DNA of 64,000 nucleotides, from assembly GCA_963921795.1 (NCBI GenBank), contig OY997647.1:55365003-55429002 (forward strand), read 5' to 3'. Position 1 is the stretch's first letter. Every line of letters starts with the position of its first letter. This DNA is from Nannobrachium achirus. Taxonomy: Eukaryota > Chordata > Actinopteri > Myctophiformes > Myctophidae. The notes below the pieces were generated by a model. It was not told the origin of the DNA. It did not search any database and was given only the letters and a program-made list of their open reading frames with translations. A program made the position numbers and the translations under genes. This document shows positions 90 through 59,056 of this stretch, in pieces.

Positions 90-2207
90 CTGATTTCTGG
101 GCAGCGTTAGGGGGTAAAAAAGACTACCAGACATCAGCCGGTCTGGAGAGTCAGAACATGTCTCAACCACCTCGTCTGTTTGGCTGTTCCAACAAAACTG
201 GCAGGTTCACCGTAAGTACCGTCATGTCGCCAGACAAAAAAACACTTCACATACCGTCATTTCATCATAAGCAGACTTAAATGTATGTTTATTCTTCTTT
301 TTTATTATTCTTGTTTATGCCCAAAATGATTGGATGTACAGGCTTTGTAGCAATTAGCCTATAGAAATATTAGACCTTAATTGTGTCAATCATGTATACT
401 TTACATGGATATATACAAATATGCAAATAGTTTTACATTTTGATCCGAATAGTTAATAGACAATCCTGTGTCCCTTTGAAAATGTAATCCTGTACATTAG
501 ATATAAGTTGCAACCTAAAGTACTGTAATTAGTTTACAGTAATACTTTCTGTGCTAAGTAATATGTTATTTATTATTATTCATTTGTTATGTTTGCAAAA
601 CATTTCCTTCACATAACAGTAAATGTAATAAATATTACCCCAGTATTGAAATAAGTTATTGTGTTATTATTATGTGAGTTAATTAACACTGGTGCTCTGC
701 AGGTTGAAGAGGTTCCTGGAGAGTTTACTCAGGCTGACCTGGCAGAAGATGACGTGATGCTGTTAGATGTTTGGGACCAGGTAAAAACCCATACAGAACA
801 TAAATCTCTGAGAGTTCTCAGAGTTTCAAATGCTTAAATTAACACTACTGTGTGTTATATAGCATGTTTCAAAATATGCCAAATGAATGTCAATATGAAG
901 TAAAGGTGAAATATATGAGACATACGTATGGGTGTATTGTATTGGGTGAGCATGGGAAGTCAACCAAACTTCCAGAGGGACTACAGTGGTTCTCAACCTG
1001 TGGGTCAAGATCCACAGGGGGTTCCCCACATGATTTTAACGGGGTCCCCAGATGACAGTGAAGTGAAAATTTTAGGACTTTTAAGAGCTTTTTAATACCT
1101 AAAAAAAGAAAGAGAAGAAAAAAAGAAAAAGACCATTACTGCATCAAAATTAATCAACCAACTATACTATAAAAGCTGGTCAAACATTAGCCAAATTGTC
1201 ACATAATATAAGAAATTAGCCGATCTACAAGCTCAGAAGTCTTGCAACGCGAGGCATTACAAGCCTATATATCTGCTATTTTCAAAATATTGATTTGTGG
1301 AACCAAGTCAAAATTGAATGCTTCAACTCCTACATTCAGAGTGCTTGTCAGGGTGGGGGTTCCCCAATTAAAATATGATTATTTTGGGGGCTCACGACCT
1401 AGAAAGGTTGAGAACCACACATTCAAACTAATAGTGTCCATATGTGTCTCTTTTCTTGTAGGTGTTTGTCTGGATTGGCCAGGATGCCAATGAGATTGAG
1501 AGAACAGAATCTGTCAAAGCGGGTGAGTCACTTGTCCCTCATGTGTACAAGGTTTTTACTTTTTGTTTTGTTTTATTATATTTTCCTTAAACATAAAACA
1601 AAATATGAGAGTGCTTGGCCTCATCAAACTGAACCAAAAATTAAAGGCATCAATGTTACTGAGAGTTTACAGTTGTAGCTGTATTTTAATAACTATATTT
1701 TACCCAATCTATATGTATCAGTAAAGGTCTCTATATGTCTCCCTATACTCACTTATAGATTTAGACCCTTTCCAATCCAGGATAGGACATGAACTTTACA
1801 TAATGCAGACTTTAAGAAATGTTCTAAAGCACAATGGTAGCTGAACTCATTGTTCATAGACCACATAATAATCGCCATGTCTGTGGTGCAGTTGACCCAT
1901 GTTCTGCCCTAGTTTCCAGTTACCTCTACACTGTCCTCTCTAAAAAACTATCTTCATACATAGCCCAATCTCTGAGCTCCTGTGCTACAGGATGCATTTA
2001 TCTCCTGTTGATCTTCTTTGAGACTTTATTTTTTCCCTTGCAGCCAAGCAGTACATTGAGACAGACCCAGGCGGTCGTGACAAACGGACTCCGGTGGTGA
2101 TCATCCAGCAGAATTATGAACCCCCCACATTTACCGGCTGGTTCCTGGGATGGGACCCCTCCTACTGGAGCCCAGAGGCCGCAAATATGAGGGCACTCAA
2201 ACTTTAG
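90..2207 (+). CDS. scin: Scinderin (adseverin), C-terminal coding exons, partial gene
   Basis: Four coding exons are visible: 90-211, 703-780, 1462-1522 and 2044-2207, each with AG acceptor and GT donor (gtaagt, gtaaaa, gtgagt). They join in frame to give about 140 residues ending at TAG 2205-2207. The frame carries [56 protein letters not shown] and [12 protein letters not shown], the sixth gelsolin-like repeat of the gelsolin/villin superfamily. Family members are Ca2+-dependent actin-severing and capping proteins of the cytosol. The wording is closer to scinderin than to gelsolin, and the adjacent ARL4A gene fits the SCIN locus. The tail after GWDPSYW is longer than the mammalian scinderin end and resembles gelsolin there. 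The 5' part of the gene is outside the window. A MITE occupies the intron between exons 703-780 and 1462-1522. Confidence 0.9.
984..1420. mobile_element. hAT-like MITE, family C (CAGTGGTTCTCAACC ends), intronic
   Basis: Left terminus CAGTGGTTCTCAACC and right terminus GGTTGAGAACCAC form inverted repeats, with a GGGGTCC-rich subterminal region like the copy at 50558-50961. No clean 8-bp target duplication remains, so it is older than that copy. A diverged hairpin module lies at 1216-1281 (TTAGCCGATCTACAAGC ... ATCTGCTATTT). It sits in a scinderin intron about 40 bp before exon 1462-1522. Confidence 0.8.
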
Positions 2208-2830
2208 GGACTTTGTTTTCTCGATCATAAATTATGAATGCAGACTGAGATTCATCTTTTCCATCTAATTAACACACAGAAAACTGAAAATATCAAATTA
2301 AGTCATGTGCAGGAAATGTTTTTTTTTTTGCATTTGTATTTTTTTTTCAGCTGTTTCATTTCATGCATGCAGAACTCTTTTGTGTGTTTTACAAATGGCT
2401 TTCACAGCAATTAAAACGGTGCTTATTTGTCTTTTTATTTTACTGTGATGTATTTTAATGCTTACAGAACTATTTTTATGTTTTCATATGATTTTGTTTT
2501 ATTTTTTTACTCTGATGTATTAAACTGAAGTACATTGTATTATATATAGTGCAGCTTTTTAGCCACGAGGTGGTGCTCAAGTAACATGAATTGTAACGGA
2601 TTCGAGGTCGTAAGCCTAAATAAATAACTGTAATCCCCCGGTGGTTTGTCTTGAGGTGGGGGAATCTGAAATAAGAAGCTGGCTGTTTTGTACTTTGAAT
2701 ATCGACAATATTATTAAACAATATTGTTAACTTTTTTTTTCACTCACCCTCACGTTTTTATTTTATTTGATCTATTCTATCCAGTTGTTAAAACCTTCAC
2801 TTGCAATAAAGTGTTGTAGACAGAGTGTCC
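2208..2830 (+). other. scin: Scinderin 3' UTR
   Basis: T-rich, non-repetitive sequence follows the stop codon. Candidate polyadenylation signals are ATTAAA (about 2410 and 2519) and a consensus AATAAA at 2805-2810; the last is the strongest. The 3' end is inferred, not measured. Confidence 0.55.
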
Positions 2831-3309
2831 ATGTGTATTACGGTCAATGGCCCGATTTCCTAGGTGATTGTTATCAAACACTTGTAAATTAAGACTGACG
2901 TCATCTGCAATCCGACCTGAATCAACACCCATCCTCTTAGTGAATTATGCATAGGCCTATCAATGTACATAAGCGCTCAAAGTGCTGGCGTTCAATGGGT
3001 AATCAACACCAACGTACTGTAGTACTGTAGAGGGTTTCTTTCATGTCAACTTTAATATGACTTTTAGTCTTCACAATTAAATAGGTACTTTGAAATGGGG
3101 GTGGTCCAGGGCCTTATAAAAGTAAAATATTTTATTTTATTGCTTTCATTTAGCCTACTTATTTATGAAATTATGGGGTGGGGATAAAAATAAAAATAAA
3201 ACGTTTGTCAAAACGTTAGGCTACATCTTTCACCATAGGTTTTTAGCAGAGCAATCTAATCTACATTCCATCATTCCTTGCATTGCCTAGGCCTACTAAA
3301 TTACTATAC
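2831..3309. other. Intergenic sequence, nothing recognised
   Basis: AT-rich spacer between scinderin and arl4a with no convincing frame or repeat. Confidence 0.5.
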
Positions 3310-3516
3310 CAGTGGTGGAAAGTAACTAAGTACATTTACCTAAATACTGTAGCTGTAGGCTACTTAAGAACAATTTTGAGGTATTTATGTGTACTTTAAT
3401 TGAGTGTTTCCAATTTATTTATTTTAACTTTATTTTAACTTGTAACCGATCGAGTATTTCTACATTGCAGTATTGATACTTTTAAGTAAAACATTTGAGT
3501 ACTTTTTCCACCACTG
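3310..3516. mobile_element. Small MITE of the AAGTACTTT type (CAGTGGTGGAAAG ends)
   Basis: CAGTGGTGGAAAGTAACTAA at the left pairs with AGTACTTTTTCCACCACTG at the right. The interior is rich in AAGTACA and AAGTAAA motifs. This arrangement is common in fish genomes. The flanking 8-mers (tactatac and aaagttca) do not match, so the duplication has decayed. Related fragments lie at 10078-10212 and 33290-33640. Confidence 0.75.
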
Positions 3517-3539
3517 AAAGTTCATGAGTGACAGAAAAC

Positions 3540-3993
3540 AGGTGGTGTTGTGGGTGTGTCGTTATGACAGACGACCGGCGTTTCTCTCCTCCAATCAGAC
3601 GCCCCACACGCTAACGTGCGCCGTGGCGATTCAGCCAATCACCGGACTGAGGGTGGGTGGGGCTAAACGCTTTTTAAACGACACTTCGCCGTGTGACGGT
3701 GTCGCGCACCGAACACCGCAGATCTACAAGCCCTTGACACGACAATGACGCGACGCGTCGACGCCTTGTAGATCTGCGGTGTTCGGCGTTGGCCCCTCCC
3801 CTCCGGTTGCTGGGAATGGAGAGGGAAGCCACAACACAACGGACACGCCAGACGCACTTTATCTCGCTGGATGAGTGGAAGTGGATGACAATCGCTTGAG
3901 GATACATTACAATTTACATTACCTGCTGCTGCTGCAACGTTCACTGTTTCTGCTGTTTTTTTTATTAAACCAGATGATCAAATTAATTAACAG
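3540..3993 (+). promoter_or_regulatory. arl4a: arl4a promoter and noncoding exon 1
   Basis: A CpG-rich stretch carries two CCAAT boxes (3591-3595 and 3635-3639, both CCAATCA) and then a segment ending in a splice donor, CAG|GTAAGA, at 3993/3994. The coding exon starts with an acceptor about 700 bp downstream, so this is best read as promoter plus untranslated first exon. The transcription start is not visible; the region between 3640 and 3720 is likely. The hairpin at 3710-3785 falls at or just after the start region. Confidence 0.6.
3710..3785. repeat. Hairpin module at the arl4a start region
   Basis: Arms 3710-3730 and 3765-3785 are perfect 21-bp inverted repeats containing GCAGATCTACAAG and CTTGTAGATCTGC, around a 34-bp GC-rich loop that includes GACGCGACGCGTC. 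The GATCTACAAG core is the one shared by hairpins across the window, but here the outer stem is CGAACACC instead of AAAATAGC. In RNA it would give a stable 5' UTR stem-loop if transcribed. Confidence 0.85.
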
Positions 3994-4706
3994 GTAAGAA
4001 CGAAGATGCATTTATAATTATCTAGTAGCAACGTGCACGCAAAACACTGTAAATGTTTCGCTGCCTGCTTATAATTTGACAGTTTAATATTGTTGTGTAA
4101 TGTAATTGGGGGTTTTAGTTGTAGTTCGTGTGTCAGATTAACCAGTGACAGACCCTAATTTATGCCAACCGTTTATTTTCGAACACTTGTTGAAATATTC
4201 GGCTAAAAACCAAGCACCGTATGTGGGTATGTTGCTGAGCAACATCTTTCCCTTTTTATTTTTTCCTCCCTGCTTTTGGATCACATCTACAGAAGAGCGG
4301 TTGAATGTTAAAGGTTTTAGACTAAACCGTTAAACCGCTCCAAACTTCTGATATCGGTATGTTACTGTAAAAAAGGATAAGAAAATTGAAACCTCGACCT
4401 GGGTGGAATTAAAGAGGCGTCCTGTTGACTTGAGTCTACCCAGTGAATAGGAATTAGCGTATCAAATCCCTGTTGGCTGCCGTGGCGCTACATGTGCAAA
4501 TAGGCTCCCATACGCCCCGCTGCTTTATTTCTCATTCATCCCCTGCTACCGAATAACGCCTAGATTGCTTTCAGGATGTGTAGTGTTCTAGAATGATAAT
4601 GGGAGATGGTACTTTCATCCAATTCTCTGATTATAAAAGCAATATAGAGTGCTGTAGTTGTGTGTTTTTACAGTTGCTTTCAGTGAAACCTCTTTTATTT
4701 GTCCAG
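3994..4706 (+). other. arl4a: arl4a 5' UTR intron
   Basis: Starts GTAAGAAC and ends in a pyrimidine-rich tract with TTTGTCCAG at 4700-4706; a second possible acceptor CTGCTGCAG ends at 4719. No repeat recognised inside. One 5' UTR intron before an intronless coding exon fits ARL4-family genes. Confidence 0.5.
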
Positions 4707-4810
4707 GTTCCTGCTGCAGCCCCCTGGGATTAAGAGCAGCTTTGGGAATATCTGGTGAAAGTAGAGAGACCTCCCTTGGCTCCTGTGTCCTCATACGCCG
4801 TCGTATCAAG

Positions 4811-5416
4811 ATGGGGAACGGATTATCGGACCAGAGTGCCCTCTTTTCCTGTCTCCCGTCATTCCAGGCCCTCCACATTGTCATTCTAGGACTGGACTGT
4901 GCGGGAAAGACCACTGTGTTGTACCGCCTACGCTTCAACGAATTTGTGAACACTGTCCCAACGAAAGGATTTAACACGGAGAAGATCAAAATGTCGCTGG
5001 GTCCTAGCCGGCGGACGGCATCTTTTCACTTCTGGGATGTAGGCGGTCAGGAGAAGCTACGGCCTCTGTGGCGATCATACACTCGCTGTGCGGACGGCAT
5101 CGTGTTCGTGGTGGACTCGGTGGATGCCGAGCGCATCGAGGAGGCCAAGACGGAGCTCCACAAGATCACACGGCTGGCAGAGAACCAGGGAGTGCCGGTT
5201 CTGGTGGTCGCCAACAAGCAGGACCTCAGGAACTCTCTTAGCCTGGCTGAGATGGAACAGATGTTGGCCCTGAACGAGCTGGGCGCTTCCACGCCCTGGC
5301 ACCTGCAGCCCACCTGTGCCATCATCGGAGAAGGTCTGCCGGAAGGGCTGGAGAAGCTCCATGCCATGATCATGAAGAGGAGAAAGGTGCTTCGGCAGCA
5401 GAAGAAAAAGAGATGA
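4811..5416 (+). CDS. arl4a: ADP-ribosylation factor-like protein 4A, small GTPase
   Basis: A 201-residue intronless coding region, against about 200 in mammalian ARL4A. The start is the ATG of MGNGLSDQ, since Gly2 is the N-myristoylation site of the family; the frame is open upstream but that part is 5' UTR. GTPase motifs are P-loop GLDCAGKT (27-34), switch I Thr51, WDVGGQEK (75-82) with Gln80, NKQD (135-138) and TCA (168-170). The extended switch I-II spacing and the basic tail [13 protein letters not shown] are typical of ARL4. Family proteins act at the plasma membrane and nucleus, recruiting cytohesin/ARNO to control ARF6 and actin. The scinderin neighbour supports the 4A assignment over 4C or 4D. 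No damage seen. Confidence 0.95.
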
Positions 5417-6550
5417 TTTACACCCACAGGAAGGCGCTCAATAAGAGCGGTCTGAGGACTGAAATGGGTGGTGGAGCCAAGTGAATGCCCCACAAGTGGC
5501 CCGGCCTTGAGCCAACACAGCTGACTTCCCTGGGAAGTCTGTATCGGTGGCTGATTGATGAGTTTGATCAGTCCGTTTGGAACTGTTTGTTCAGGGTTAT
5601 TACGATGTTGCTGTCGCCGGGGCCAGCGCGATTGATTTTGCCGCGTGGACTTTGGATAATGACAATCCAGTGTCAGTATAGGAACACTAATGTTGTTAAA
5701 GGAAGTATTACGCCATACTGCCGCCCTCAACAAAGATCACAACAAACAATCAATACTGGACTATGGACTCCAACAAGACGATTGACTCATGTTTGTGTAG
5801 CCTACCTGCTGTTCTGCAGTTTTACTGATAAAAAGTAAAGGAAACAGTGTATTGTTTTGTTTACCAAAGCTAGTGTTGAGATTCCAGGTAGAGACATGGA
5901 TTAGAGAGAGCGCTCAAATTAGCAGACGTCAATCTTTTTAAATATAACGACAGATAGTCCTGAGTATTTTGTCTCCATGTTGCACAATGGGAAGAGGGTC
6001 CACAGACGTTTACATTAGATTTGATGAAATACCAAGTTAAGAATGCACAGATGGGGCTTCTTCCTATATCATATAAATGGTTTGTCTGTCATGGAGTTTA
6101 AACATTTACAGCGACTGTGTGACTATCAGCCTTGCTCACAGTGGATGCGTCTTGTGTAATTCTGTTGAGTGACAGAGTCTGTTGCTTCAGCAGGAATATT
6201 CATTGGCTGCCATGTCAAATCTCCATCCTCATACGAAGCAGGGCTGGCGTCAGAGCCAACATGTCTAAAAGACGAGTGTTCAATCAAGACAAGAGTCAAA
6301 ATGCACTTTATCGGTCCTTTTCTTGACCTTCAAGCTTACACGAACAACATTTTTATATGAAGTTTATGAGACTAGATGAAGAGAAATATGGCTTCAAAAG
6401 AAGTGGGGGAGGGGATTTGTTTGTACTTTAAAGAGAGGTTCTGTTACATGTGTCAGCCTTTCACTCTGTCTTTGTTTCGCAGGGTGTTTATATGAATGTG
6501 TTTGATCCAATTTGTTCACTTTGAATAAAGAAACTGTGGCACAATTATAC
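5417..6550 (+). other. arl4a: arl4a 3' UTR
   Basis: Long non-repetitive sequence after the TGA with AATAAA at 6524-6529, the likely polyadenylation signal. Short ATG-led frames inside are not convincing. Confidence 0.6.
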
Positions 6551-6674
6551 AACATTATACTACAGCACAGCCTGTTTCTTTATCTTGTCACAGCACAGGT
6601 TACTTGGCACACCAGTGGAAAATTGCATTGCTCCTTCACCTCCACTTGTCTGTGTAGCAAATGTACAAGCTTAG

Positions 6675-6745
6675 AAAAATAGCAGACCGACAAGCTGACA
6701 GCGCCTTGCACTGTGTCATGTGAGCTTTGTAGATCAGCAATGTTT
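6675..6745. repeat. Hairpin module, diverged standalone copy
   Basis: AAAAATAGCAGACCGACAAGC on the left pairs with GAGCTTTGTAGATCAGCAAT on the right. The arms have several mismatches and the loop is altered, so it is an old copy. Confidence 0.65.
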
Positions 6746-6794
6746 GCCTATTTGTTCTGCCGTTTTAACATTTAAATATAATATTTATTTACAT

Positions 6795-7125
6795 CAGGGG
6801 TCTTCAACAGGGGGTCCTCAGAGTTACTATAGGGGGTTCTCCAAAGATAGAAACTTTTCTTCTCTTTTAAATGAACCCTAGTGTCCTTAAGCCAAAAATA
6901 GCCGATCTACAAGCTCACAACGCCTCTCGGGCCTGCATGGCGTTGTGAGCTTGTGGATTGGCTATTTTTGTCAAAGAGGTTTGGTGTAGAGGGGAAAAAG
7001 CAGACTAATTACAGAGTGAAAACAATGAAACTATATGTAATCTATGAAAAGGTTGTGGGGGGGGTCCCTGCTTCATCTCTCTCTCGACTAAGGGGTCCTT
7101 GGCCTGAAAACGTTAAAGACCCCTG
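6795..7125. mobile_element. hAT-like MITE, family A, copy 1, with hairpin module
   Basis: Ends CAGGGGTCTTCAAC and GTTAAAGACCCCTG are inverted repeats. The 8-bp duplication ATTTACAT flanks it exactly (6787-6794 and 7126-7133). Subterminal GGGGTCCTC and TAAGGGGTCCTTGG blocks are shared with the copy at 12933-13368. The hairpin module lies at 6895-6968 with one arm altered (GTGGATTGGC). No coding capacity. Confidence 0.92.
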
Positions 7126-7133
7126 ATTTACAT

Positions 7134-7918
7134 TATTTTGGCATGCCCAAAATGGGGATGCCAGGTTATTAAGCTGCACACAACACAGTGTAAACACAGA
7201 GAAAGGGTTAGGGGTTATGGTTATGTTTTCAGAAGAAAAGGTTACAGGGCTCCTCCTGGCCCTGAAACAGCTTGAACAGATGGAGTCAGTCATGTGTTTT
7301 TTTACATGGGTAGTGGGTACTACCTTACATTACATCACTGTGTATTTACTTCCAGCTAACACCCATCCACTGCTCTCATGGTTTCTCACTGAAAGCAGCT
7401 CAAGTTAAACTGTGACAGCTAGAGGTTAAGTAGCTACTGTAGGGAGCGAGTCTGCACGCTCATGAATATTCCCAATGAATAATGTCAACGGGACCTTTTT
7501 TCTATTTCTGGATTGCAGCTGGCCCTTTCAAGTCATTAGCTGATACAGCTAAAACAGATTCACCAAAAAAAATGCATTTGTAACAGTCAAACATTTTTAG
7601 AAATAGTTTGAATATTTCTGGGTTGCTTTGCGATAACCGGTGTGTAAATACTAAGAGCCCCTTCAGATTTTGGCGTGTTTTATTTGAGAGTTCCATTTAT
7701 TTTAGATGTTTATCCTGTGGACTGGCTCCTGTTGTACTAGGATGTTGGTTTTGGGAGCTGTGGGTGTTTTGAGAAGAGTGGGCAGTCTGGGCACGGCCAG
7801 TTCTGGCCCAGGACATGTTCCTTCTCCTGGAACAATAACAGACATGGAGGAGGGGGCACTGGTCAGAGCAGAGATGACCGCTTAACCATGTGACGTGAAC
7901 ACTATTTCAACATTCCGT
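7134..7918. other. Intergenic, no gene recognised
   Basis: Mostly unique sequence. A fragment at about 7141-7165 (CATGCCCAAAATGGGGATGCC) resembles the edge motif of the TTAA-type hairpin repeats. Confidence 0.5.
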
Positions 7919-7999
7919 CAAAATAGTGGATCTACAAGCTAACAACGTGCCGCAATGCGACGTGCCGACAGTACCGGTATATAGGGTTGAAGTGGTTAA
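7919..7999. repeat. Half hairpin module joined to a GTGGTTAA end
   Basis: AAAATAGTGGATCTACAAGC and a short GTGCCGCAATGCGACGTGCC stem remain, then GGTTGAAGTGGTTAA. The right outer arm is lost. Confidence 0.6.
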
Positions 8000-10077
8000 G
8001 GAGCCACAAAGAAATAACTTTCAAGACAAAACTAAAATATTATTTGCACACAATGATAAAGGATTTACAAAGAATGTTAGAAATGTGCAGGAATAAGAAA
8101 CCCAAGTGGGCTTATTTCAATAATATATTGTGATGTGAAAAATTGGAAAATAAACAGTGAAGAGACATTCAAGAAATACAACAATTAAAAAAGGTTTGGA
8201 TATACAGTAACTATCATTGAGTCTGAAAGCCAAATTATTTACCTTTTAATGGTGTTCAGGCAGGTTGTTCCAGAGGCATGGTATCAAACTTTAAATTGAC
8301 CATGAGTAGTCCCAGAACAAGTAATAATAAAATAGTGGAGCTCAGAAGAGAATCCAGTATTATAATTGTGTTAAAATATTAGCCTAATATTTTTTGAGAA
8401 TGTATGTGATGGGAGTGGGGAGGTTTAACGCATGCAAACACCCCCCAAATGATGTACTATTCTCTTTTTACAAAATTCAAAGTATCAAACCTTGCATGCA
8501 GATCGGGATAATCAAAGTGAATATGATGGTAACATTATAATAGGCTCAGAGGCTCCAGTAGACTATGCAAGCAGATTGGGTGCCCAGCATGCACACACAG
8601 GCAATGTACTCCCAGAAACCCTGGTGCTGTTTGTGATGCCAAGGCTCCCAGTCCACTAACTCAAAAGAGAATTCAAAATGTGGAGTAAAATATGCAGCCT
8701 TCTAATAAGTTCACAGCAGCTTTTCGAAAACTTGGCAACCACTTTGAGGGTGAACGCAAATATAAAACTCTAATGTGTTATTTGCTGAAGGAGCATTGCA
8801 TTTTTAACATAAAGATAACATTTCCTTAAGGTACAGTAGCATAGAACCAGTGCATACAGGGGTTTGACTACATGTTTTTATATGGCAGTGGTGCTATAAC
8901 CTAAGCCATGCCACAGGAGTACCACCGTTTTTGTGTGCGTGTACAGTATTTCCATTACAGACGGCTCATGCTGGGCAGGATGGCATGGCAGGTTAAAACG
9001 CTCCCAGTTCCCATGCCCCTGGCTGAGAGAAGCCAACCCAGTTCATCAAAGTGACGGAGGCTGCCGCAGGGTTCAGTTGTTCCCATACCATCGTATCATC
9101 CCCTCTTCTCCTTCCTGCAGCAGCGCAAAATCCTGTCCCAACTCTTTCCCTTTGATCCAGTCTAGTAATTATCAAGAGATTAGTCCACTAGCACTAGTAC
9201 TAGTGGGCCTATAGAACAGCCACTTTGCTGTGGGCTTAACCACTGGCCCGTAACACACTGCGTCGAGTCAAAACCTTGTAGAGCCCTCCCTCACATGTCC
9301 ACACTGGCTCCAGGCTCGCCCATGCTGTGTGTATAGTATTGCACACTAGCTGTGGTCATAAATGTTGGAGCTCCCTGTAATAAACAAGCGGTGCACATGG
9401 TCATTAATGACTTCCCAGAAGGAATGTGGGGCATACAGTATATCTGGAGGGTTAACCTTTTCATGCACAACAGGCCTTAAATGGAAGCTCTTCCTGTTCT
9501 CCCTCAAACAGTACATACCGTACCTTCTTCTAACATCGTCTGTTACCTGTCACACAACTGAGGCAGCATCGCTGCGTCAATGCCAGAACAAACGACCTGT
9601 TGTGTGTTAGTGGTCGTTTATGAAGTCAAGTATTAAGTTTCACACTTCACTGGTTCTCAATGTGAGAGACCAAGGGATCCTTGGTCTTTTTTGGATCATT
9701 TATCAAAGTTACAGGTCTGTAACTCCAACCTGTACACCGTTGGATCTACATAGTAGATTGGAGTCGCAGAGTCAAAAGCCTGTCTGCAACGACAGTCTGG
9801 GTAGTTCTCCAAATGGGTGTGAACGCCTAAAAGTTGTACATGCTGAATGGTGATGTGTGTGTGAACTAACTGCTGATCTGGGCCTTTTTCGCCTCCCCGC
9901 CCTCCTCCTGATGGGTGTGAATTGTACAGGGTGTGGACTGGACTGGACCGTATCGTCGTCAGAGCAGGGAGGAAGACATAATAGTGATAAGAAAGAGGAA
10001 GAGCCGCTCCCTGTGCCCTGGTCATGGCTTCCTGACCAGAATAAAACCTACTAATACTATACTACTACTCACCTCCA
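8000..10077. other. Intergenic, no gene recognised
   Basis: Largely unique AT-rich sequence. Around 9650-9690 a GGTTCTCAATGTGAGAGACC segment resembles a hAT-type terminus. A short inverted repeat TTGGATCTACATAGTAGATTGGA lies near 9740. No frame here looks coding. Confidence 0.5.
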
Positions 10078-10995: not shown

Positions 10996-10996
<1 letters not shown>

Positions 10997-12932: not shown

Positions 12933-13368
12933 CAGGGGTCTTCAACAGGGGGTTCGGGACCTCTAGGGGGTCCTCAGAGTTAACACAGGGGGTCCTCCAA
13001 ATCTTTGTTTGATAGAAAGATTCTTTTTTCCTGAGAACTTAAGCCAATAATAGCAGATCTACAAGCTCACAACGCCTCGCAGCGCGAGGCGTTGTGAGCT
13101 TGTAGATCGGCTATTTTAGGAAAAGGGGTTTAGTGCAAAGGGGGAAAAGAGCAGACTAAGCACAGAGTGAAAGGTCAAGTTTATTAAGTATTGACGGTTC
13201 AAGTGGTTAAATATCTGAAAACACAAATTGACATGAATCCAAAATACACTGATGATCGTGCTGTCAAACGATGAAACTATATGGAATCTATGAACAGGTT
13301 GTGGGGGTCCCTGCTTCATCTCTCTCTCAACTAAGGGGTCCTTGGCCTGAAAACGTTGAAGACCCCTG
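12933..13368. mobile_element. hAT-like MITE, family A, copy 2, with perfect hairpin module
   Basis: Ends CAGGGGTCTTCAAC and GTTGAAGACCCCTG are perfect inverted repeats, flanked by the 8-bp duplication CCTTAAGG (12925-12932 and 13369-13376). The hairpin module at 13050-13114 has arms that pair with one mismatch around a 3-base loop. Non-coding. About 100 bp longer than copy 1 because of interior sequence containing GTTCAAGTGGTTAA. Confidence 0.94.
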
Positions 13369-19290: not shown

Positions 19291-19295
19291 TATTT

Positions 19296-24587: not shown

Positions 24588-24595
24588 GTTGTTCA

Positions 24596-24983: not shown

Positions 24984-24991
24984 GTTGTTCA

Positions 24992-46053: not shown

Positions 46054-46396
46054 CAGGTACGTGCAGGGAATGTTAGAGAGGCAGGGGCCCAAATTGCGAA
46101 AAGGGCGTTTGGTGAACATTTTGAAAATAGCAGACCTCCAAGCTCACAATGCATTTCGCTGCGCCGCGTTGTGAGCTTGGAGGTCGGCTATTTTCGGTAC
46201 TTGATAAACTATAAGCATAATCAAGTCGAGACAATTCTCTTGAATGCTGCCTTCAGGTATGGCATGGAAAGGGGGAATTTGCATTTCTTTCACCATAGTG
46301 AAAATGGCATTCATGGTCTGGAGAGGACACTTTTTACAGACAGGTAAAAGGGTAGGGGCTCAAGCCCCCTTTGATGTCTATGTGTGCACGTGCCTG
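46054..46396. mobile_element. hAT-like MITE, family L, copy 2
   Basis: CAGGTACGTGCAGGGAATG to GTGCACGTGCCTG with perfect ATGGCAAC duplication (46046-46053, 46397-46404). The hairpin 46125-46195 keeps the CCTCCAAGC/GCTTGGAGG arm variant of family L but with a longer tip than copy 1. Opposite orientation to 28143-28549. Confidence 0.94.
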
Positions 46397-46552: not shown

Positions 46553-47065
46553 CAGGGACGTGCTGGCCATTGGGAAAAGCGGGACAACTCCCGAACGGCT
46601 GGTTCATTCCCTGGCCGGTCCAGGCCGGCCATTTGGAATAAATTAAAAATAATATGTCGGCCTTCGTTCCAGTCTCGGATCTCCAAGTTTCAAATTTGTA
46701 GTTTTTTCTCGCAAAGCAAAGCCCTGCTTCATCATACAAGGCCGTCGCACAAAAGTAGTGAAAACAGCAGATCTACAAACACACAACGCCTCGCGGTGCG
46801 AGGCGTTGTGTGCTTGTAGATCGTCTGTTTTCATTAGTTTAAATCATTTTTAAAATGATAAATACAAAACATACAAGGTTTCCACCCGACAACGACAAAA
46901 TATAACTCATGTAATTGGCCCACTGGCTTGTCACTTGTCACGATCTGAAATGGCAAATCTTTGAGTAGCAGCAGCGCTATAGAGAGAGATCTCTCTCTAT
47001 AGCGCGCAATGAGGGCCTCTCCAACTCTTTTTCCCGGGCTGAATCAGGGGCCCAGCATGTCCCTG
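46553..47065. mobile_element. hAT-like MITE, family M, copy 2, containing a K module
   Basis: CAGGGACGTGCTGGCCATTG to CCCAGCATGTCCCTG; flanks AGACCGGG and AGACTGGG differ at one base. The K module 46630-46908 is longer than in copy 1 and has its hairpin at 46764-46838. The palindrome AGAGAGATCTCTCTCT is again present near the right end. Confidence 0.87.
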
Positions 47066-47492: not shown

Positions 47493-47543
47493 GAAAAATA
47501 GCAGATCTACAAGCTCTACGAGTTTGTAGATCTGTTATTTTTT
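47493..47543. repeat. Hairpin module, short standalone copy
   Basis: Arms GAAAAATAGCAGATCTACAA and TTGTAGATCTGTTATTTTTT around an 11-base tip; the inner CTCACAACGC stem is absent. Confidence 0.85.
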
Positions 47544-48570: not shown

Positions 48571-48642
48571 AAAGACAGCCAATCTACAAGCGTACAACAC
48601 GTCGCATAACAATGCGTTGTGAGCTTGTAAATCTGCTATTTT
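48571..48642. repeat. Hairpin module, diverged standalone copy
   Basis: AAAGACAGCCAATCTACAAG on the left, GAGCTTGTAAATCTGCTATT on the right, with a partly broken CGTCGC/GCG tip. Confidence 0.75.
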
Positions 48643-49266: not shown

Positions 49267-49275
49267 AAACCCCAT

Positions 49276-49513: not shown

Positions 49514-49570
49514 CAAAAATAGCCGATCTACAAGCTTGTTGTGAATTTGTTTGTAGATCGTCTATTTTTG
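49514..49570. repeat. Hairpin module, short standalone copy
   Basis: CAAAAATAGCCGATCTACAA pairs with TTGTAGATCGTCTATTTTTG with one mismatch; the 17-base tip is AT-rich. Confidence 0.85.
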
Positions 49571-49626
49571 CTGAATGTTTGCATATTGTCCCAGCCAGCA
49601 CGCCCACATGGGTCCCGCATGGGTAC

Positions 49627-50340
49627 AGGGTGGGCTTCCCTACATGGGCCCCATGTGGGAATGTCCGCGGTTTCCACAAGGGTCCCTTGTGGGTTAGCCC
49701 ACGTGGGCTCTGTGTGGGTTCTACATGGGCCCGGGGTGGGCCCCACCTCGGCTAATTTATATGGGACCCAGGTGGGAACCACTTGGGCTAGCCCACGTGG
49801 GCTCAACGTGGGTTCTACATGGGCGCTGGGTGGGCCCCACCTCGGCAAATTTTAATGGGACCCATGTGGGAACCGCCTGGGCTAGCCCACGTGGGTTCTA
49901 TGTGGGAATGTCCGCGGTTTCCACAAGGGTCCCTCGTGGGTTAGCCCACGTGGGCTTAACGTGGGTTCTACATGGGCGCTGGGTGGGCCCCACCTCGGCT
50001 AATTTATATGGGACCCAGGTGGGAACCACTTGGGCTAGCCCACGTGGGCTCTGGGTGGGTTCTGCATGGGTCCTGGGTGGGCCCCACCTCGGCAAATGTA
50101 TATGGGACCCAGGTGGGAGCCGCTTGGGCTAGCCTGTGTGGGCTCTAGGTGGGTTCTACATGGGCCCTGGTTGGGCCCCACCTCTGCAAATCTGTATGGG
50201 ACCCAGGTGGGAGCCGCTTGGGCTAGCCTGTGTGGGCTCTAGGTGGGTTCTACATAGGCCCTGGTTGGGCCCCACCTAGGCAATTCTATGCGGGAACCAT
50301 AGGGGATAAACGTGGGATCCAAGTGGGTTCAACCTTGCTC
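49627..50340. repeat. Left minisatellite array, about 94-bp period
   Basis: Units of TATGGGACCCAGGTGGGAGC, GCTAGCCCACGTGGGCTC and GGTGGGCCCCACCTCGGC recur about every 94 bp, roughly three 31-bp subunits. Many units contain the E-box CACGTG. Confidence 0.9.
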
Positions 50341-50557: not shown

Positions 50558-50961
50558 CAGTGGTTCTCAACCTGTGGGTCGGGACCATAGACTGTGGTCG
50601 GGACCCCCAGGGGGGTCCCCAAATTATTTTGGGGGGGTCCCCAGATGATTAACTTAATGTGCAACATTGTTTTCTCACTCAACAGTAAACAATCCAACAT
50701 GAAATGTAAGTGTATAGAGGGCATATGCACATTTCTAAAGTGACAATTTAGGACTTTTTAATACCTCTAGAGGCAAGAATTGTGAAAATAGCCGATCTAC
50801 ATGCTCACAACGCCTCAGGTTGCGAGGCGTTGTGAGCAATGTAGATCTGCTATTTTCACAATAGAACCGTGTATATACAAAAAAAAAGAATTTTACTGGG
50901 GGTCCCCAGTTCAAATATGATTATTTTGGGGGTCTTGACCAGAAAAGGTTGAGAACCACGG
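50558..50961. mobile_element. hAT-like MITE, family C, complete copy
   Basis: CAGTGGTTCTCAACCTGTGG to GGTTGAGAACCACGG with perfect CAGTACAT duplication (50550-50557 and 50962-50969). The hairpin is at 50784-50860 (GAAAATAGCCGATCTACATG ... ATGTAGATCTGCTATTTTC); both arms changed CAAG to CATG together. Confidence 0.95.
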
Positions 50962-52067: not shown

Positions 52068-52372
52068 CCAAGGACCCCTAGTTGAGAGAGATGAAGCAGG
52101 GACCAACACCTTTTCCTTGCTTCCATATAGTTTCATCATGACAGGAAAATCATCATTGTATTTTGGATCCATGTCAATTTGTGTTTCAGATATTTAACCA
52201 CTTGAACAGTCAATACTTAATAAAGTTGACATTTCACTCGGCACTTGGTCTGCTCTTTTCCCTCTCTATAAAACCTCTTTGCCCAAATGTCTGATCTACA
52301 AGCCTTGCACTGCGAGGCGTTGTGAGCTTGTAGATCTGCTATTTTTGGCTCAAGTTCTTCAACAAATCTGCC
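52068..52372. mobile_element. Family A MITE, reverse, both ends lost, with hairpin
   Basis: GGCCAAGGACCCCTAGTTGA and GATGAAGCAGGGACC match the right subterminal of 12933-13368 read backwards, followed by its interior (GACTGTTCAAG-like segment). The hairpin 52288-52345 has a shortened left arm. Confidence 0.75.
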
Positions 52373-53744
52373 CCTTCCACTAGTTAGCTGCAGCTATATG
52401 CTGTCACATTCAACTTCAGTTTTTTCCACACAACATTTAAGTTAGCCAAGCATTATGTAAGTTTATATTACCATTGTCACTTATGGGGTACTTCATTGTC
52501 TGTCTGTAGTTCGAAGCCTCTGCTTTTCAGGTTTGTGTTGAGCACATTTTCTTCATGAAAGAGGGAACAAAAGAGATTTAAAAAGTTAAAGCAATGTAAA
52601 TGTCAATGTAGGCCTACACATATTTGAGGAGGGGAAAAAAGTTATGTTCTGGCCCACCTTTAAGCATCTGGCTGCACTAAATACTTAACTGCTCTGCACA
52701 CAACTCTGACAAAACATTGCCAATTTACAAGCTCATAACATATGTGTTGTGATGCTTCATTAGCTAGTAGAACTGCTATTTTTGTGGGTTTGCCCAGAAT
52801 AGGTACACTATAGGGTACATTAACCAACATATACAGTAGGCTACATTAAAACATAATATATAACAATATTGGCCTGTCTAAATCCATGGTTTGAAATAAT
52901 TGGTTGCAATGTGATAACTAGAGCATAAAACATGTAACTTGTTGTTTAAAGATAATGTCCTTATAGTTAAGTTGACAAAAACAACAAACCTTGAGTTAAA
53001 ACTAGGCTAGTCTCTAGGCTAGTTTGATAAGATTTTAGAATATAGATTAGATAATGAGGTTACTTACCACATACTTTTGGATTTTTTTAAGGTCCATTCG
53101 TGGAACCTCTCATGAAGTTCCTCACTCTCAAATGACAAAGAAAAAGAGATTCAGTTTGAAAAAGTCTGGGAAGGACAGTGATTGGCTAGACGGTCAATAG
53201 CACCTACATGTGAAATCACCCTGTATTCACATGGTAATGAGAGTCTTGGTTTGGTCTACTCACTGTGCCTGCCTGCCTGCCTGCCTGCCTGCCTGCCCCT
53301 GCCTTTTTGAACAAAATGAATCAAGTAGAATGTGGTGTTGTAGCCTAGCGTAGCGAGACTATATACTAATGCAGCTAACTAAATGCAATATTAGGTGGAT
53401 TGTTTAGCTCTGCTAGGCTATTGGTGTTGTACAAAGCAGCTATAACTAGCAGCACATAAAGCAAAGTCCAAAGTCTGGCCAATCGTGGAACACCGACAGA
53501 TTGTGTATGGCCTGAGGCTTTTCTCCTAAAATGTTTATAACCACACATAATAACTACAGTTTTGCAGTGGAATGCGTTGTGATCTTGTAGATTGGCATAT
53601 TTGAGTGTGGATTTGACCAGGAGTCTGCTTAACTTATTTTAATGAATATAATGTAATTTTGTCGAATGTTGTTTTAGGAGCATATGAACAAAATAGAAGT
53701 AATGAAATTAATGTTTTTCATACTACCACCAGACAGGTTAAAAG
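52373..53744. other. Intergenic with decayed hairpins
   Basis: A decayed hairpin at about 52715-52785 (GCCAATTTACAAGCTCATAAC ... AGAACTGCTATTTTT) followed by TTGCCCAGAATAGG; (TGCC)n at about 53268-53297; half hairpin GCGTTGTGATCTTGTAGATT at 53573-53592. No gene. Confidence 0.5.
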
Positions 53745-53852
<108 letters not shown>

Positions 53853-54114: not shown

Positions 54115-55113
54115 GACCAATGTGGGAACCACGTGAGCCAGCCCACTTCCATCCCATGCACAGTTATCCCACATGTAGCCCATGTGGAAACCATGTGGGC
54201 CAGCCCACTTCCAACCCATGCCCAGTTAGCCCACATGTAGCCCATGCAGGAACCATGTGGGCCAGCCCAATTCCACCCCATGCCCAGTTAGCCCACATGT
54301 AGCCCATGCGGGAACCATGTGGGCCAGCCCATGTCCATCCCATGCCCAGTTAGCCCACATGTAGCCCATGCGGGAAACACGTGGGCCAGCCCACTTACAT
54401 CCCATGCCCAGTTAGCCCACATGTAGCCCACGTGGGAACCACCTGGGCCAGCCCACTTACATCCCATGCCCAGTTAGCACACATGTAGCCCATGCGGGAA
54501 CGACGTGGGCCAGCCCACGTCCATCCCAGGTCGTTAGCCCACATGTAGCCCATGCGGGAACCATGTGGGCCAGCCCATGTCCATCCCATGCCCGGTTAGC
54601 CCACATGTAGCCCATGCGGGAAACACGTGGCCCAGCCCACTTCCATCCCATGCCCACTTAGCCCACATGTAGCCCATGCAGGAACCACGTGGGCCAGCCC
54701 ATGTCCATCCCATGCCCAGTTAGCCCACATGTAGCCCATGCGGGAACCACGTGGGCCAGCCCATGTCCATCCCATGCCCAGTTAGCCCACATGTAGCCCA
54801 TGCGGGAACCATGTGGGCCAGCCCATGTCCATCCCATGCCCAGTTAGCCCACATGTAGCCCATGTGGGAACCACTTGGGCCAGCCCACGTCCATCCCATG
54901 CCCAGTTATCCCACACGTAGCCCACGTGGGAACCACTTGGGCCAGCCCATGTCCATCCCATGCCCAGTTAGCCCACACGTAGCCCATGTGGGAACCATGT
55001 GGGAAAGCCCACTTCCAACCCATGCCCAGGTATCCCACATGTATCCCACGTGGGACCCATGTAATTTGCCCACATCAAGCCCATGCCCACGTGGTACCCA
55101 AGTAGCCCAACTC
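54115..55113. repeat. Right minisatellite array, 62-bp period
   Basis: About 16 units of CCCATGCGGGAACCATGTGG, GCCAGCCCATGTCCATCCCA and TGCCCAGTTAGCCCACATGT. The period of 62 bp is twice a 31-bp subunit. CACGTG and CATGTG E-box forms recur. Confidence 0.95.
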
Positions 55114-55150
55114 GTACCCATGCGGGACCCATGTGGGCGTGCTGGCTGGG

Positions 55151-56221
55151 GTGACATGCCGTTAGGGATGCCAGGGTTCATGTGGTTAAAATGGCCTATA
55201 AATGGTCCCTGAAGCCTGAAATATATTTTCTTATGACACAATACAGACTGCTGTTCAGAAAGCTCATAAATCTTCACCTCACATGTGACAAATTCAATAT
55301 GGTGTTGATTATATTAAACCATTACATTGTCATCTGCAGTTGCATAATTATACAGTATACACTATTTATCACTCTCTAAACATGCACACTTCAGTTAATT
55401 GTTCTTTGGCAGGCTTGCAAATACCTAATGATAAAAATGTGACGTCTTAAAATACCTCTAGCTCTTTCGATGCAATGTTTGGCTTTACTTTGATATCCTT
55501 GTGTGCTCATAAACAAACATTCCTGGTGACACGAAAAAGCTAACTCGAATTTGAACTAACTACTACTACTACTACTTTTTGGGTCATCGTTCCCTCATCT
55601 GTACTCAACTTACTTTTCACTAACGATCGACTTATTGGCTTCTCAGAGAGCCTTTTTTTCCTTTCTTTTTTTTGTTTTTGAATGTTAGAAACTTTGTCAT
55701 TGCTTTGAAGATATGATACTCGCCTGTGGATAGGAGAGGAGCTGTGGAGTGAATATACTGTAGATGCGATAGATGTATTTATTTATTTAATAAATAATGT
55801 AATATTCTTGCAGCAAAGCCGTACATTCATAGATCAAAACAAATGCAATCCCTGGGATGTAGCAGAAATCTTTCTCTTAAGGGGCTCAAGGCGATGTCTG
55901 CTGAACATCGCACACGTGTTTTGTTCTCATAACCAACATGAGCCAATGTTTTTGTTTCATTTTGTCTACCAGTGACTTTATCTTACAAAAGTCGCTGGTA
56001 CCGTGTGGGCAAACCTGTTTGTTATGAGCGCATTACACACATGTTACACTGTGGTTACACAGTAAAGAGCTGCATGTCCCACCTTTTACTGATGTGTGGT
56101 TAAGTACAGTATATGGACGTCCAAGAACATACAGCTTTATCAGTATTCAGTGAGTGTTGCTTTGAGATGAACTAAACAAAAATGGTGGACCTTTGTCAAA
56201 TGGTGCTATATTGCAGAACCA
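55151..56221. other. Intergenic, nothing recognised
   Basis: GGATGCCAGGGTTCATGTGGTTAA at 55166-55189 is a TTAA-family edge. The rest is unique AT-rich sequence. Confidence 0.45.
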
Positions 56222-57185
56222 TTAGAGTTTACAGTTTACAGTTTAGGCATTTAGCAGACGCTTTTAATCCAAAGCAACTTACAATCAGCAGATAACATCA
56301 CAATAATAAACAAGATAATATGTCAGTATAAATGCAAAAGGATATCTATCTAGAAAAACACCATATAATCAAAGTTCTAAAAAACATAAAAAACAAAACA
56401 AATGCTAACTAGCTTCATGTATTCATTGATTTTTCTGTAGTGCTAAGGGTTTAGGTGGAGTCTGAAAAGGTGAGTCTTCAGTCCACGGCGAAAGCTAGCG
56501 AGTGAGTCCGTTGTTCTAAGTGCGACAGGGAGTTTATTCCACAACTTGGGGGCCAGGAGGGCAAACTGTCTCGGACGAGTGGATTTTTGCCCTGGAGTTT
56601 TTAGCGAGGGTTCTGTCAGCATCCCTGTGTTGGCTGATCTAAGTGACCGGGTGGGGGTGTAGGGGTTGATCAGCTTCTGGAGGTATGGAGGAGCCATACC
56701 TTTGGCTGCTTTGAAGGTCAGCATCAGTGTTTTGTATTCAGTGCGGGCCGCAACCGGGAGCCAGTGGAGGCTGCGGAGAAGGGGAGAGACATGTGAGAAC
56801 TTAGGCTGGTTGAAGACCAGTCGTGCCGCGGCATTTTGGATCAGTTGGAGAGGTTTAAGTGCACATGCCGGGAGACCAGTGAGGAGAGAGTTACAATAGT
56901 CAAGCTTTGATATGACAGATGTCTGAATGAGGAGCTGGGCTGCCTCCTGGGTGAGGAAGGGTCTGATTTTACGGATGTTATAGAGTGTGAACCTACATGA
57001 CCGGGTGACTGATGCAATGTGTGCCTTGAATGATAGCTGGCTGTCCAGGACCACACCAAGGTTTCTAGCAGTAGGAACTGAAGTCACAAATGCATTATCT
57101 ATGGAAATAGTGAGATCTTGCATGGGGCAAGACTTAGCTGGGAAGAAGAGTAGCTCCGTCTTGTCCGGTGCCATAAACTAAAGTA
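56222..57185 (-). mobile_element. 5'-truncated LINE (CR1/L2-like), ORF2 C-terminal part and 3' tail
   Basis: The minus-strand frame 57174-56443 (243 residues) has NLGVVLDSQLSF, KLDYCNSLLTGLP, QNAAARLVFNQPK, SLHWLPVAARTEYK, APPYLQKLI and LWNKLPVALR, the region after the reverse-transcriptase fingers in CR1/L2-clade elements. The 3' tail (complement of 56226-56285) contains GCTTTGGATTAAAAGCGTC and TGCTAAATGCC, the usual fish L2-type tail. The frame is open but starts mid-domain, so this is a dead 5'-truncated copy. Confidence 0.85.
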
Positions 57186-58511
57186 CCATGCATAGTAGTA
57201 CATAAGGACCGCAGGAATACACAAGAAACGGAGGGGGAGAGTGATTTAATCCGGTTGCTCCGTAGATCCGTACCTAATTGTCTCTGTCCGCAACCTTACG
57301 GACAACACTCAACCCGACGGATTAAAACCGATAAAGACGTACGTACACTTGAACTACCCGTGGCGAACCTTTGTCAACCGTGGCAGTAGTGAGGAAAATT
57401 ACTTATGACAGCGGTTCTGAAACAATGTGTCCCAACAAGAAATATAATTTAGCAAGAAATGGGAAAAAAGGAACGTCATTGCAATCACTGAAGAGGACGT
57501 CTGGACTCCTCACAGGCTCAAACGGCTTTATTGGCATGAGAAGACATACACACAAACGCGCGCGCGCACACACACTCACACCGCCCGTCCTCCAACAGCG
57601 AGACGGGTGCAGTGCACTGTGTTTTGTTATAATTACTCAGTCCGGGTGGTTAATCTGTACCTCGGTCCCTCGCGGAGTTGCATTTACCGCGATAAGGTTG
57701 CCGACAGACAAACATCACGTCGGTCGTCGGGTCAAGTGGTTATACATATTTTGGCTAAAACCACCTCCATGTGGCACGCGGTCCCAACAGGAGCAGAATT
57801 GGAGTGGAGAGTGGGTCGGCACGTAAATAACGTAGAGAGGAACTATGCATGTCGACGGATCTACCGTACGTACTCTCTCACCCAAAAACGTACACAAAAT
57901 CACGCATACGTAACTATAAACGGCGAAGAATCAGTAGACAACTAAAGAAACATACAGGGGCTTATTGAGTTCTTTGTATGGCAGCGGTGCTATACAAAGA
58001 ACCGCTTACAAACTACTGAAGAACAACAATCTTTATGTGTGTGCAGGAAGGATGGAAATATCTGCGCATTCCAATCTTTAATTCTTTGTTTGTGACTTAC
58101 TTGTATTCTGTCAGTGATCAGTGTCACTAAGCATTTCTAGACCCCAAGAAAGAGGCAGATGTGGGGAGGTGCTGCAGGTTGTCGCCACTTTTGTTGAACA
58201 TGAATGAACATTGTAAGAACATTTTGGATTGATCGTCAGGGTAGCAGGCCATAGGATCGAACATTTGAATCAAATAGATCAGAGATGTTATGGAACAAAG
58301 GCTTAAGGTCATACCCATCTTCTCACCCTACAGGGGAGGGCACCCCCTGGGCCTTTTGGGAACCCCTGCAACGCCCTGCCCCCCAACCATCCCCTTGCAG
58401 TGGGGTGTGTGCCTGCTAATGGACTGATAGCATGAGGTCAAGAGGTGAGGACACCCTGCAGTGAGCATGTACCAACAGGCCAAGTGTCAGAGTGATGATC
58501 TGTTGTCTTAA
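57186..58511. other. CpG-rich intergenic block, then unique sequence
   Basis: 57190-57960 is unusually rich in CpG for this window and in open frames, but none matches a domain I know. GGCTTTATTGGCATGAGAAG at 57522-57541 recurs as GCTTTATTGGCATGAGAAAA at 63754, a retroposon-tail-like segment. About 58330-58370 ends TTTTGGGAACCCCTGC, a hAT terminus. Confidence 0.4.
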
Positions 58512-59056
58512 CAGGGGCGTCAATTGGGTATGGCAGGGGTATGTACTATGCAGCTGCCATACCCTGGGTCCAGGGGGGAAAATAAAAGTTACTTTTAAAT
58601 ATAAATCCATGAATGTCTCTTTGTCTGCGCTGGTTATTATGTTGTTAAATTACAGTAAAATAACTACAAATGCAAAATTTGACAAAATGGTCACTTTAAC
58701 AAGGTATTATAATTATTCTCCACATCTTGACAAGATGGTATATTCCCAGGTTCCGCAGTTCAGCTGCACACACAGGTGCAATGCATTATTGTTAATTGTG
58801 GCACGTTTACTAACATGCCAAGTTTAGCTGCACTTGAACAACCGTTCCAGGCTGCCATATCCAGCCCAAGAAACCGTAGAAACCTGTGTAAAAAACTGTC
58901 AAAACGTCATTTTTTTCAGACATTGTGAAAATAGCCGATCTAAATGCTCACAACGCCTCGCAGCGCGAGAACCGTGTTATACAAAATGTAATGCCTCTTT
59001 GCCACGAGGACTCCCATCTTTGCCATACCCTAGCTTTTGCTGAACTGACGCCTCTG
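58512..59056. mobile_element. hAT-like MITE, family H, with half hairpin
   Basis: CAGGGGCGTCAATTGGGTAT to GAACTGACGCCTCTG with perfect TGTCTTAA duplication (58504-58511 and 59057-59064). The hairpin at 58925-58975 has its left arm and tip, then passes directly into TATACAAAATGTAATGCCTC, which belongs to family C interiors. Confidence 0.94.

Follow-up and report, generated by a model that had tools for sequence, protein, structure and literature searches.

A hairpin module that several non-autonomous hAT elements and other short transposons carry and multiply in the genome of Nannobrachium achirus

What is the short palindromic hairpin that recurs so often in a 64,000-nucleotide stretch of the Nannobrachium achirus genome (assembly GCA_963921795.1, contig OY997647.1, positions 55,365,003 to 55,429,002), and how is it multiplied? 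We refer to this whole stretch as the window. A reading of the sequence alone (the sequence-only reading) had described the hairpin as a single recurring element with near-perfect stems, present in about 35 copies at an unusual density. Our safest statement is that several non-autonomous hAT elements, together with other short transposons, carry this hairpin module and multiply it, and that it is an internal part of these different transposons rather than a single element.

That one module recurs, and densely, is borne out by counts of its arm: with up to 3 mismatches allowed, AAAATAGCCGATCTACAAGC has 44 matches in the window, while 100 dinucleotide-preserving shuffles of the window gave a mean of 0.00 and a maximum of 0. 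The 13-mer ATAGCCGATCTAC at up to 2 mismatches had 46 window matches against 0.67 expected. Inverted pairs of arms at up to 3 mismatches in 17 occupy 18 places; allowing 4 mismatches adds two-arm places at 1216, 3715, 6679 (overlapping the start at 6654) and 50788, and a 65-bp scan adds 17362, bringing the places with both arms to about 23. The earlier figure of about 35 is reached only if half copies are counted as well. Among the positions that had been listed, both arms are present at 13050, 14186, 15066, 19379, 34140, 24713, 28434, 30691, 34656, 44956, 46125, 46764, 47493, 48571, 49514, 52288 and 6895, and in more diverged form at 1216, 3710, 6675, 17356 and 50784. One good arm with no second was found at 7919, 10322, 47809 and 58925, and the copy placed at 29385 is an element of the family that we call B from which most of the hairpin has been deleted.

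The core of the module is 65 bp long, running from ATAG to CTAT, and consists of two 31-bp arms and a 3-nt loop. In most copies AAAA and TTTT lie beyond the core, which gives 71 bp with A/T ends. The exact 65-bp length was found in 30 of 59 two-arm copies (a set in which some places are repeated, since L006–L008 overlap), the others being mostly shorter. The near-perfect stems that had been reported are confirmed by DNA folds of four copies, with energies of −38.2 to −57.8 kcal/mol and z scores of −13.7 to −17.2, and the stem CACAACGC...GCGTTGTG turns out to be the inner half of the module stem and not a separate one. In 54 copies of 65 bp, all arm pairs are complementary in most copies except for the pair formed by core positions 6 and 60 (6/60), which is C.T (A.G from the other strand) in 40 of the 54. 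Among the 26 copies that had not been picked by an exact arm, 18 are mismatched at 6/60, 6 are matched and 2 are other. Like a miniature inverted-repeat transposable element (MITE), the module has terminal inverted repeats (TIRs), is short and non-coding, and occurs in high copy number, and like elements of the Angel type it has inverted repeats that form a stable hairpin, as judged by the DNA folds. No Rfam family matched the window above its gathering score, one 24-letter module pattern had no exact match in either a prokaryote or a viral contig collection, four 19-letter arm pieces had no match in a literature search, and no title listed by term searches of the literature concerned such a hairpin module.

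The window is not special, and the repeat is common throughout the sampled genome. In the whole assembly (1,658,514,493 bases in 564 contigs), the exact arm 20-mer occurs 47,546 times (23,814 and 23,732 on the two strands), and its reversed control does not occur. A random sample of 20 stretches of 10 kb, each at position 20,000,001 of contigs C1–C20 (188,050 non-N bases), held 79 modules. These comprise 109 arms when 3 mismatches in 17 are tolerated, against none for the reversed control, and the exact 20-mer occurs twice. Extrapolation gives about 697,000 modules in the genome (bootstrap 503,000–935,000), some of the 79 sampled modules being single arms. The density that had been singled out is thus real as a density, and it is found genome-wide rather than being a property of the window. 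Apparent local arrays of the module were also seen. Four copies of family K lie 2–3 kb apart with near-identical flanks at G000:C1:26710-34576 (L001–L004), in what looks like a tandem array, and at G000:C1:2317914-2600436 exact arms lie mostly about 8 kb apart, a plus-strand run followed by a minus-strand run, in what looks like an inverted pair of tandem arrays.

When the flanks are mapped, they place the module in many different repeats. We scanned the window and the 20 random stretches for TIRs and target-site duplications, and perfect 8-bp duplications (8 of 8 identical) surround 12 module-bearing hosts, namely 3 of host A, 2 of C, 4 of D and 3 of F. The TIRs of these hosts are four different ends. 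An 8-bp target-site duplication together with short TIRs is the mark of hAT elements, and both were found for A, C, D and F, which, judged by their sequences, are hAT-type non-autonomous transposons. Other TIR pairs in the same scan have 0–6 matching duplication bases and may be diverged, nested or wrongly paired. Hosts B, H, J, K and others were assigned by flank comparison, the duplications being read for A, C, D and F. Host B is about 260–270 bp long with ends of the type ATCGTCGTTGTCGGG, and it is the most numerous of three contexts counted in the genome (B collar-plus-arm 31-mer, 24,334; C, 6,988; J 28-mer, 3,560), where the collar is the flanking sequence next to the core. A set of 60 exact-arm loci on contig C1, taken from its first 4.2 Mb and so not random, falls into families D, J, K, H and others. 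The hosts and module copies are as follows, with positions in the window unless a sampled locus is named.

12933 to 13368, plus strand: host D, with TIR CAGGGGTCTTCAACAGG / GTTGAAGACCCCTG and the 8-bp duplication CCTTAAGG on both sides.
13050 to 13114: 65-bp module core inside this host D, mismatched at 6/60.
6795 to 7125, plus strand: host D copy with 8-bp duplication ATTTACAT; core at 6898–6965.
L016:4462-4872 and L018:3615-4054: further host D copies with module and perfect duplication.
14086 to 14475, plus strand: host A, with TIR TAGGGCTGTCACAATTA and 8-bp duplication GCTGTAGC; core at 14189–14253.
14937 to 15328, plus strand: host A copy with 8-bp duplication GTCAGCAC; core at 15071–15135, matched at 6/60.
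34439 to 34830, minus strand: host A copy with 8-bp duplication ACCCCAGG; core at 34660–34724.
24711 to 24763: module core shortened to 53 bp in a host A copy (about 24590–24990).
19383 to 19447: module core in host B (about 19293–19560), with the GCACAC variant on both arms.
34150 to 34214: module core in host B, all pairs matched including 6/60, the stem extending about 10 bp into both collars.
30694 to 30758: module core in host B.
44959 to 45023: module core in host B.
46764 to 46828: module core in host B.
29274 to 29494 (approximate ends), minus strand: host B copy with the hairpin mostly deleted.
28143 to 28549, plus strand: host F, with TIR CAGGCACGTGCACA and 8-bp duplication ATACTGTA; shortened core at 28436–28475 with GACCTCC-type arms.
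46054 to 46396, minus strand: host F copy with 8-bp duplication GTTGCCAT; core at 46127–46191.
L010:7142-7732: further host F copy with module and perfect duplication.
50558 to 50961: host C, with TIR CAGTGGTTCTCAACCT and 8-bp duplication CAGTACAT; core at 50788–50853 with ACATGC arms.
L016:6645-7122: further host C copy with module and perfect duplication.
1216 to 1279: diverged module with a C-like flank family.
6679 to 6741: diverged module, both arms seen only at 4 mismatches.
17362 to 17426: diverged module.
47498 to 47538: module shortened to 41 bp, flank group G.
48575 to 48639: diverged module with flanks seen once.
49519 to 49565: module shortened to 47 bp with flanks seen once.
52287 to 52342: module shortened to 56 bp with a host D-type flank on one side.
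52716 to 52779: strongly diverged module.
58931 to 58970 (approximate end), plus strand: half module joined at its tip to the right flank of family C.

Three elements with perfect 8-bp duplications lack the module; the ends are D-type in two of them and C/G-type in the third. We therefore conclude that the module is not needed for host movement, and the idea that it is a necessary host part is rejected for D-type and C/G-type TIRs. These module-free elements share only their ends with D, or 20 bp with C, so they are not empty sites. Do all hosts descend from one ancestral hairpin-centred element whose ends were exchanged or diverged beyond recognition? The collars are partly alike (TAGTG-, TATTGTG- and GTGG- before AAATAG) and some host families have one side in common, as such descent would predict, but A, C, D and F have different TIRs, the distance from the module to the host ends varies, and the module-free elements with D-type or C/G-type TIRs also speak against it. 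We consider a single ancestor rather improbable.

Among 101 modules with both flanks, the sides form 24 clusters of at least two (one of which is the same place read twice, 6654/6679) and 62 sides were seen once. Side cluster 0 pairs with cluster 1 (17 cases) and with cluster 18 (2), and cluster 3 pairs with cluster 7 (5) and with cluster 21 (2). Because two side clusters each have two partner clusters, the sequence comparison suggests that flanks have been exchanged at the hairpin. In the 59 two-arm copies, the flanks abutting ATAG and CTAT are mutually complementary (0.88 and 0.93 at positions 1–2), with values of 0.61, 0.47 and 0.54 at positions 7–9 and a level near background after about position 12. 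The flanks adjoining the core are thus inverted and not direct repeats. Past the shared AAA/TTT, the collars are family-specific and palindromic, with TAGTG, ATTGTG, ATAGTGG, GCATGCTG and AAGAAGC among the examples. Separately, in the host A copy at 14937–15328 the left module flank resembles a segment immediately to the right of the module (21 bp, 86%, direct orientation), which may be an old duplication around the module.

Are the two arms kept matched? We examined 49 of the 54 copies with 10-bp collars, leaving out L002–L004, array copies that resemble L001, as well as L093 and L098, which resemble L091. In this set 25 of 41 arm pairs have changed on both sides, compared with 15.4 (standard deviation 1.6) in shuffles that do not keep relatedness, none of 500 of which was as high. 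Cells with a change on both sides number 162 against 78.2 in the shuffles, and the covariation score is 0.230 against 0.117. When the partner is slid by 1–3 columns, pairing falls from 88.1% to 31–43%. Some of this signal comes from differences between families, such as T-A to A-T at columns 28/58 in 10 copies, and the counts therefore represent few events. Columns 16/70, which are core pair 6/60, are unpaired in 39 of the 49 copies, and every other core pair is paired in most. Where 6/60 has been altered, 10 of 14 copies are paired, as are 6 of 8 among those not picked by exact arm; for the 10 of 14, P is 0.004 if one third is expected, subject to shared ancestry and to the bias of the exact-arm sample towards matched copies.

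The collars of three families provided further counts, each from the first 100 genome matches. In J (of 3,560), one position changed from C to A 8 times, to T once and to G never, so that pairing was restored in 8 of 9 changes, and another changed from A to G 12 times, to T 4 times and to C never, restoring pairing in 12 of 16. In B (of 24,334), there were 66 G, 33 C (paired), 1 T and 0 A, with pairing restored in 33 of 34, and the paired collar goes with a CC arm (20, 13, 18, 48; Fisher P 0.002). The J and B results fit arm-templated copying but can also be subfamily ancestry. The C collar was the one of the three tests that failed.

The account that we favour, with a probability of roughly 0.45, is that the hairpin is a passenger multiplied by host transposition and moved between hosts by hairpin-provoked template switching, and that its arms are matched anew in lineages that amplify. 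Its ancestor, a near-perfect palindrome carrying a single standing C.T mismatch, would have come to sit in several non-autonomous DNA transposons, mostly hAT. That host transposition multiplies the hairpin is shown by the perfect 8-bp duplications around hAT-type hosts that bear it. New hosts would be reached by hairpin-provoked template switching or recombination, without a transposase of the module's own, and template switching would also yield families with one flank in common but not the second. Amplifying lineages would re-match the arms, either by arm-to-arm copying or by better amplification of matched copies, and single resident copies would then decay, mostly by unpaired changes. We favour capture by template switching because of the palindromic collars, the families sharing one flank, and the known capacity of hairpins to provoke switching. 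That the hairpin is a cassette which spreads between unrelated transposon families without its own transposase, picking up new ends by template switching, founding MITE families and having its arms re-copied in the amplifying lineages, is a possibility that we hold to be doubtful.

We searched families A, B, C, H and J for host copies without the hairpin, using joined-flank or gapped queries. Many host copies have lost the hairpin wholly or partly, with junctions at many places, often GATC or TA, and from their sequences they look like ragged internal deletions for the most part. Short forms of B number 136, of which the first 100 were examined; the inner place in this family has CA/TG instead of TA. 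Short forms of C with inserts of at most 12 bases number 79. This first C search was blind to GATC-joined forms because of its 12-base limit. A second C search with symmetric ends gave 539 distinct sites (1,078 matches, since each site is hit on both strands); among the first 50, 20 have GATC or a variant of it with one change as their joint, and 4 have AAAATATTTT. Eight of these 50 lie in one cluster (C1:6.405–6.692 Mb), so the 50 are not all independent. The cluster, at G000:C1:6405271-6691329, holds eight shortened C sites within 0.29 Mb in two sequence types of four each, a local duplication. Of 40 scored H loci, 20 were examined, 19 of them short (4 keeping one arm), with many different junctions, and 1 filled; GAAAATATTTTC was absent from the 19 short copies, the query having been joined elsewhere, which lowers the chance of finding it. 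Similarly, 20 of 40 scored J loci were examined and all are short, 4 keeping one arm.

For family A, the exact gapped pattern of the joined-flank search found nothing, and a predicted-empty query gave 40 scored candidates, of which five (L139–L143) were examined. Some of the hairpin tip is left in L140, parts of both imperfect direct repeats in L139 and one arm in L141, and L143 is filled. L142 (G000:C15:14663450-14663920) has no module letters, and its TA junction lies beside two tandem copies of the 8-bp TATCAATG. Either a deletion or a TA-flanked empty site would fit L142, and the tandem repeat may be an excision footprint or a chance duplication. GATC, TA and GC can all be deletion joints, because self-reverse-complementary words lie in both arms in direct orientation. 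A junction pattern at self-complementary words fits hairpin-driven slippage. Stalling, breaks and template switching at palindromes are described in the review PMC7999016.

Several observations weigh against a passenger hairpin moved by template switching and re-matched in amplifying lineages. We caught no insertion of the module, which leaves the way it enters a new host unobserved. Within families, counted relative to the family majority and leaving out core pair 6/60 and 9 of the 54 copies that were unassigned, there are 74 single-arm changes, 4 matched changes and 1 unmatched double change. At 6/60 the mismatch persists in 18 of the 26 copies not picked by an exact arm, and strong correction should have removed it. 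In the C collar, 98 of the first 100 of 6,988 matches are unchanged and the 2 others are transitions, neither of which restores pairing. The J and B counts can reflect subfamilies, the ancestral state being taken from the majority. Turning to the junctions, the largest class of the 79 short C forms (21) is AAAATATTTT, the junction expected of a TA-duplicating insertion; a TA-type junction (AAAATATTTT / GAAAATATTTTC) is present in 4 of the 20 J copies; and L142 has the junction that would be left if the whole stretch from one TA to the other, with the collar, were removed. In A, B and L049, both ends of the palindrome, taken together with its TAGTG(A/G) collar, fall at TA. Finally, family-specific palindromic collars are also what is expected from insertion into existing palindromes.

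The junction and collar observations lead to a different explanation, in which the module is a very small MITE of about 65–80 bp that was inserted at TA by an unknown transposase and now lies within hAT and other elements. Most families formally allow a TA duplication (AAAA-TA-GCC...GGC-TA-TTTT), and the AAAATATTTT count (21 of 79), the L142 junction and the TA-ended collars speak for this explanation and weaken our own; the 4 AAAATATTTT joints among the first 50 sites of the second C search and the 4 of 20 J copies point the same way. However, TA is its own reverse complement and so also serves as a direct repeat for slippage deletion, and GATC joints are five times commoner than AAAATATTTT among those 50 sites. 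Further, B has CA/TG at the inner place, the short H copies show many junctions and no GAAAATATTTTC (with the lowered chance already mentioned), and in C, D, H, J and K the collar lacks a TA end on at least one side. The flanks adjoining the core are inverted rather than direct, and most short forms have no fixed junction. These comparisons gave no clear target-site duplication of the module's own, though one of TA may exist. On this balance we regard insertion of a TA-specific MITE as unlikely.

The excess of single-arm over matched changes (74 versus 4) indicates that correction is not frequent in resident copies, and with 0 of 2 in the C collar, frequent arm correction in such copies is unsupported. 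Arm matching seems to be a property of family-founding lineages rather than of resident copies. A stem that covaries yet conserves a single mismatch (at 6/60, unpaired in 39 of the 49 copies) could also arise if the hairpin were kept by selection as a structure, either as a transcribed RNA such as a small-RNA precursor or as a protein-bound DNA hairpin, with the mismatch part of the signal. Against this, resident copies decay as just described, many lose the hairpin altogether, and the window has no Rfam match; selection on the structure is in our view quite improbable, and lower in rank than any of the other explanations.

The window also contains several open reading frames. An uninterrupted frame of 324 amino acids at 42936–43910 (plus strand) has the ribosomal L10, L10P insertion and 60S acidic protein domains in Pfam, and it appears to be an intronless copy of the ribosomal P0 gene. 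A one-piece frame at 4658–5416 (plus strand) has an Arf domain match and resembles an ARL4-type gene. The frame at 56443–57177 (minus strand), which had no Pfam match at an E value of 0.001, reads to us like the end of a long interspersed nuclear element (LINE) reverse transcriptase. Frames made of repeated GPTWV/PRG-like units lie at 49523–50132 (plus strand) and 54859–55313, and that at 49523–49852 had no Pfam match.

How does the module compare with known systems? The genome holds a very large natural collection of a single hairpin placed in many contexts, with many shortened alleles whose junctions can be read, arms that vary together, and a fixed mismatch that serves as an internal marker. 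With such a collection one can test whether a mutational mechanism or selection keeps palindromes matched, and how the internal sequence of a new MITE family is acquired. Hosts A, C, D and F belong with the hAT-type MITEs by their TIRs and perfect 8-bp duplications; the difference is that what recurs here is an internal hairpin common to hosts with unrelated ends. Bacterial repetitive extragenic palindromic (REP) sequences are likewise short, scattered palindromic repeats without a gene of their own, and REP sequences and the Rickettsia palindromic elements are both bacterial and far fewer than the module. Unlike either, the module lies inside transposons of a genome of large eukaryotic size. 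The Rickettsia elements, which PMC6649704 mentions, resemble it as short palindromic repeats in many contexts with no gene of their own.

Similar by description are the Angel elements of zebrafish (Izsvak et al. 1999, as cited in PMC2579443), which like the module are short inverted-repeat DNA of fish with a stable hairpin and a high copy number. The comparison is by description only: PMC2579443 quotes 1,000–10,000 Angel copies in zebrafish, versus about 0.7 million modules, and the module resides in several hosts. Two Angel copies in zebrafish long noncoding RNAs are reported to have compensatory substitutions, and PMC3636048 reads these as a sign that RNA structure is under selection. Changes matched between the arms, seen here in a hairpin that multiplies as transposon DNA, offer an alternative to that reading at the level of mutation or amplification. 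If the cassette reading were true, compensatory substitutions would be a by-product of DNA replication and alone no sign of the RNA-structure selection read for Angel in PMC3636048. The module also cautions that, in hairpin repeats, covariation is weak support for an RNA function.

The remaining two systems resemble the module in how palindromes behave. The coding palindromes of hairworm mitochondria, described in PMC6649704, have arms kept matched in evolution, with conversion discussed as a cause; unlike the module, they lie in mitochondrial coding genes, have longer arms and form no repeat family. Human palindromic AT-rich repeats (PATRRs), reviewed in PMC7999016, are few, long, AT-rich and confined to single loci, unlike the module, and resemble it in that a hairpin or cruciform is a source of breaks, template switching and joined flanks.

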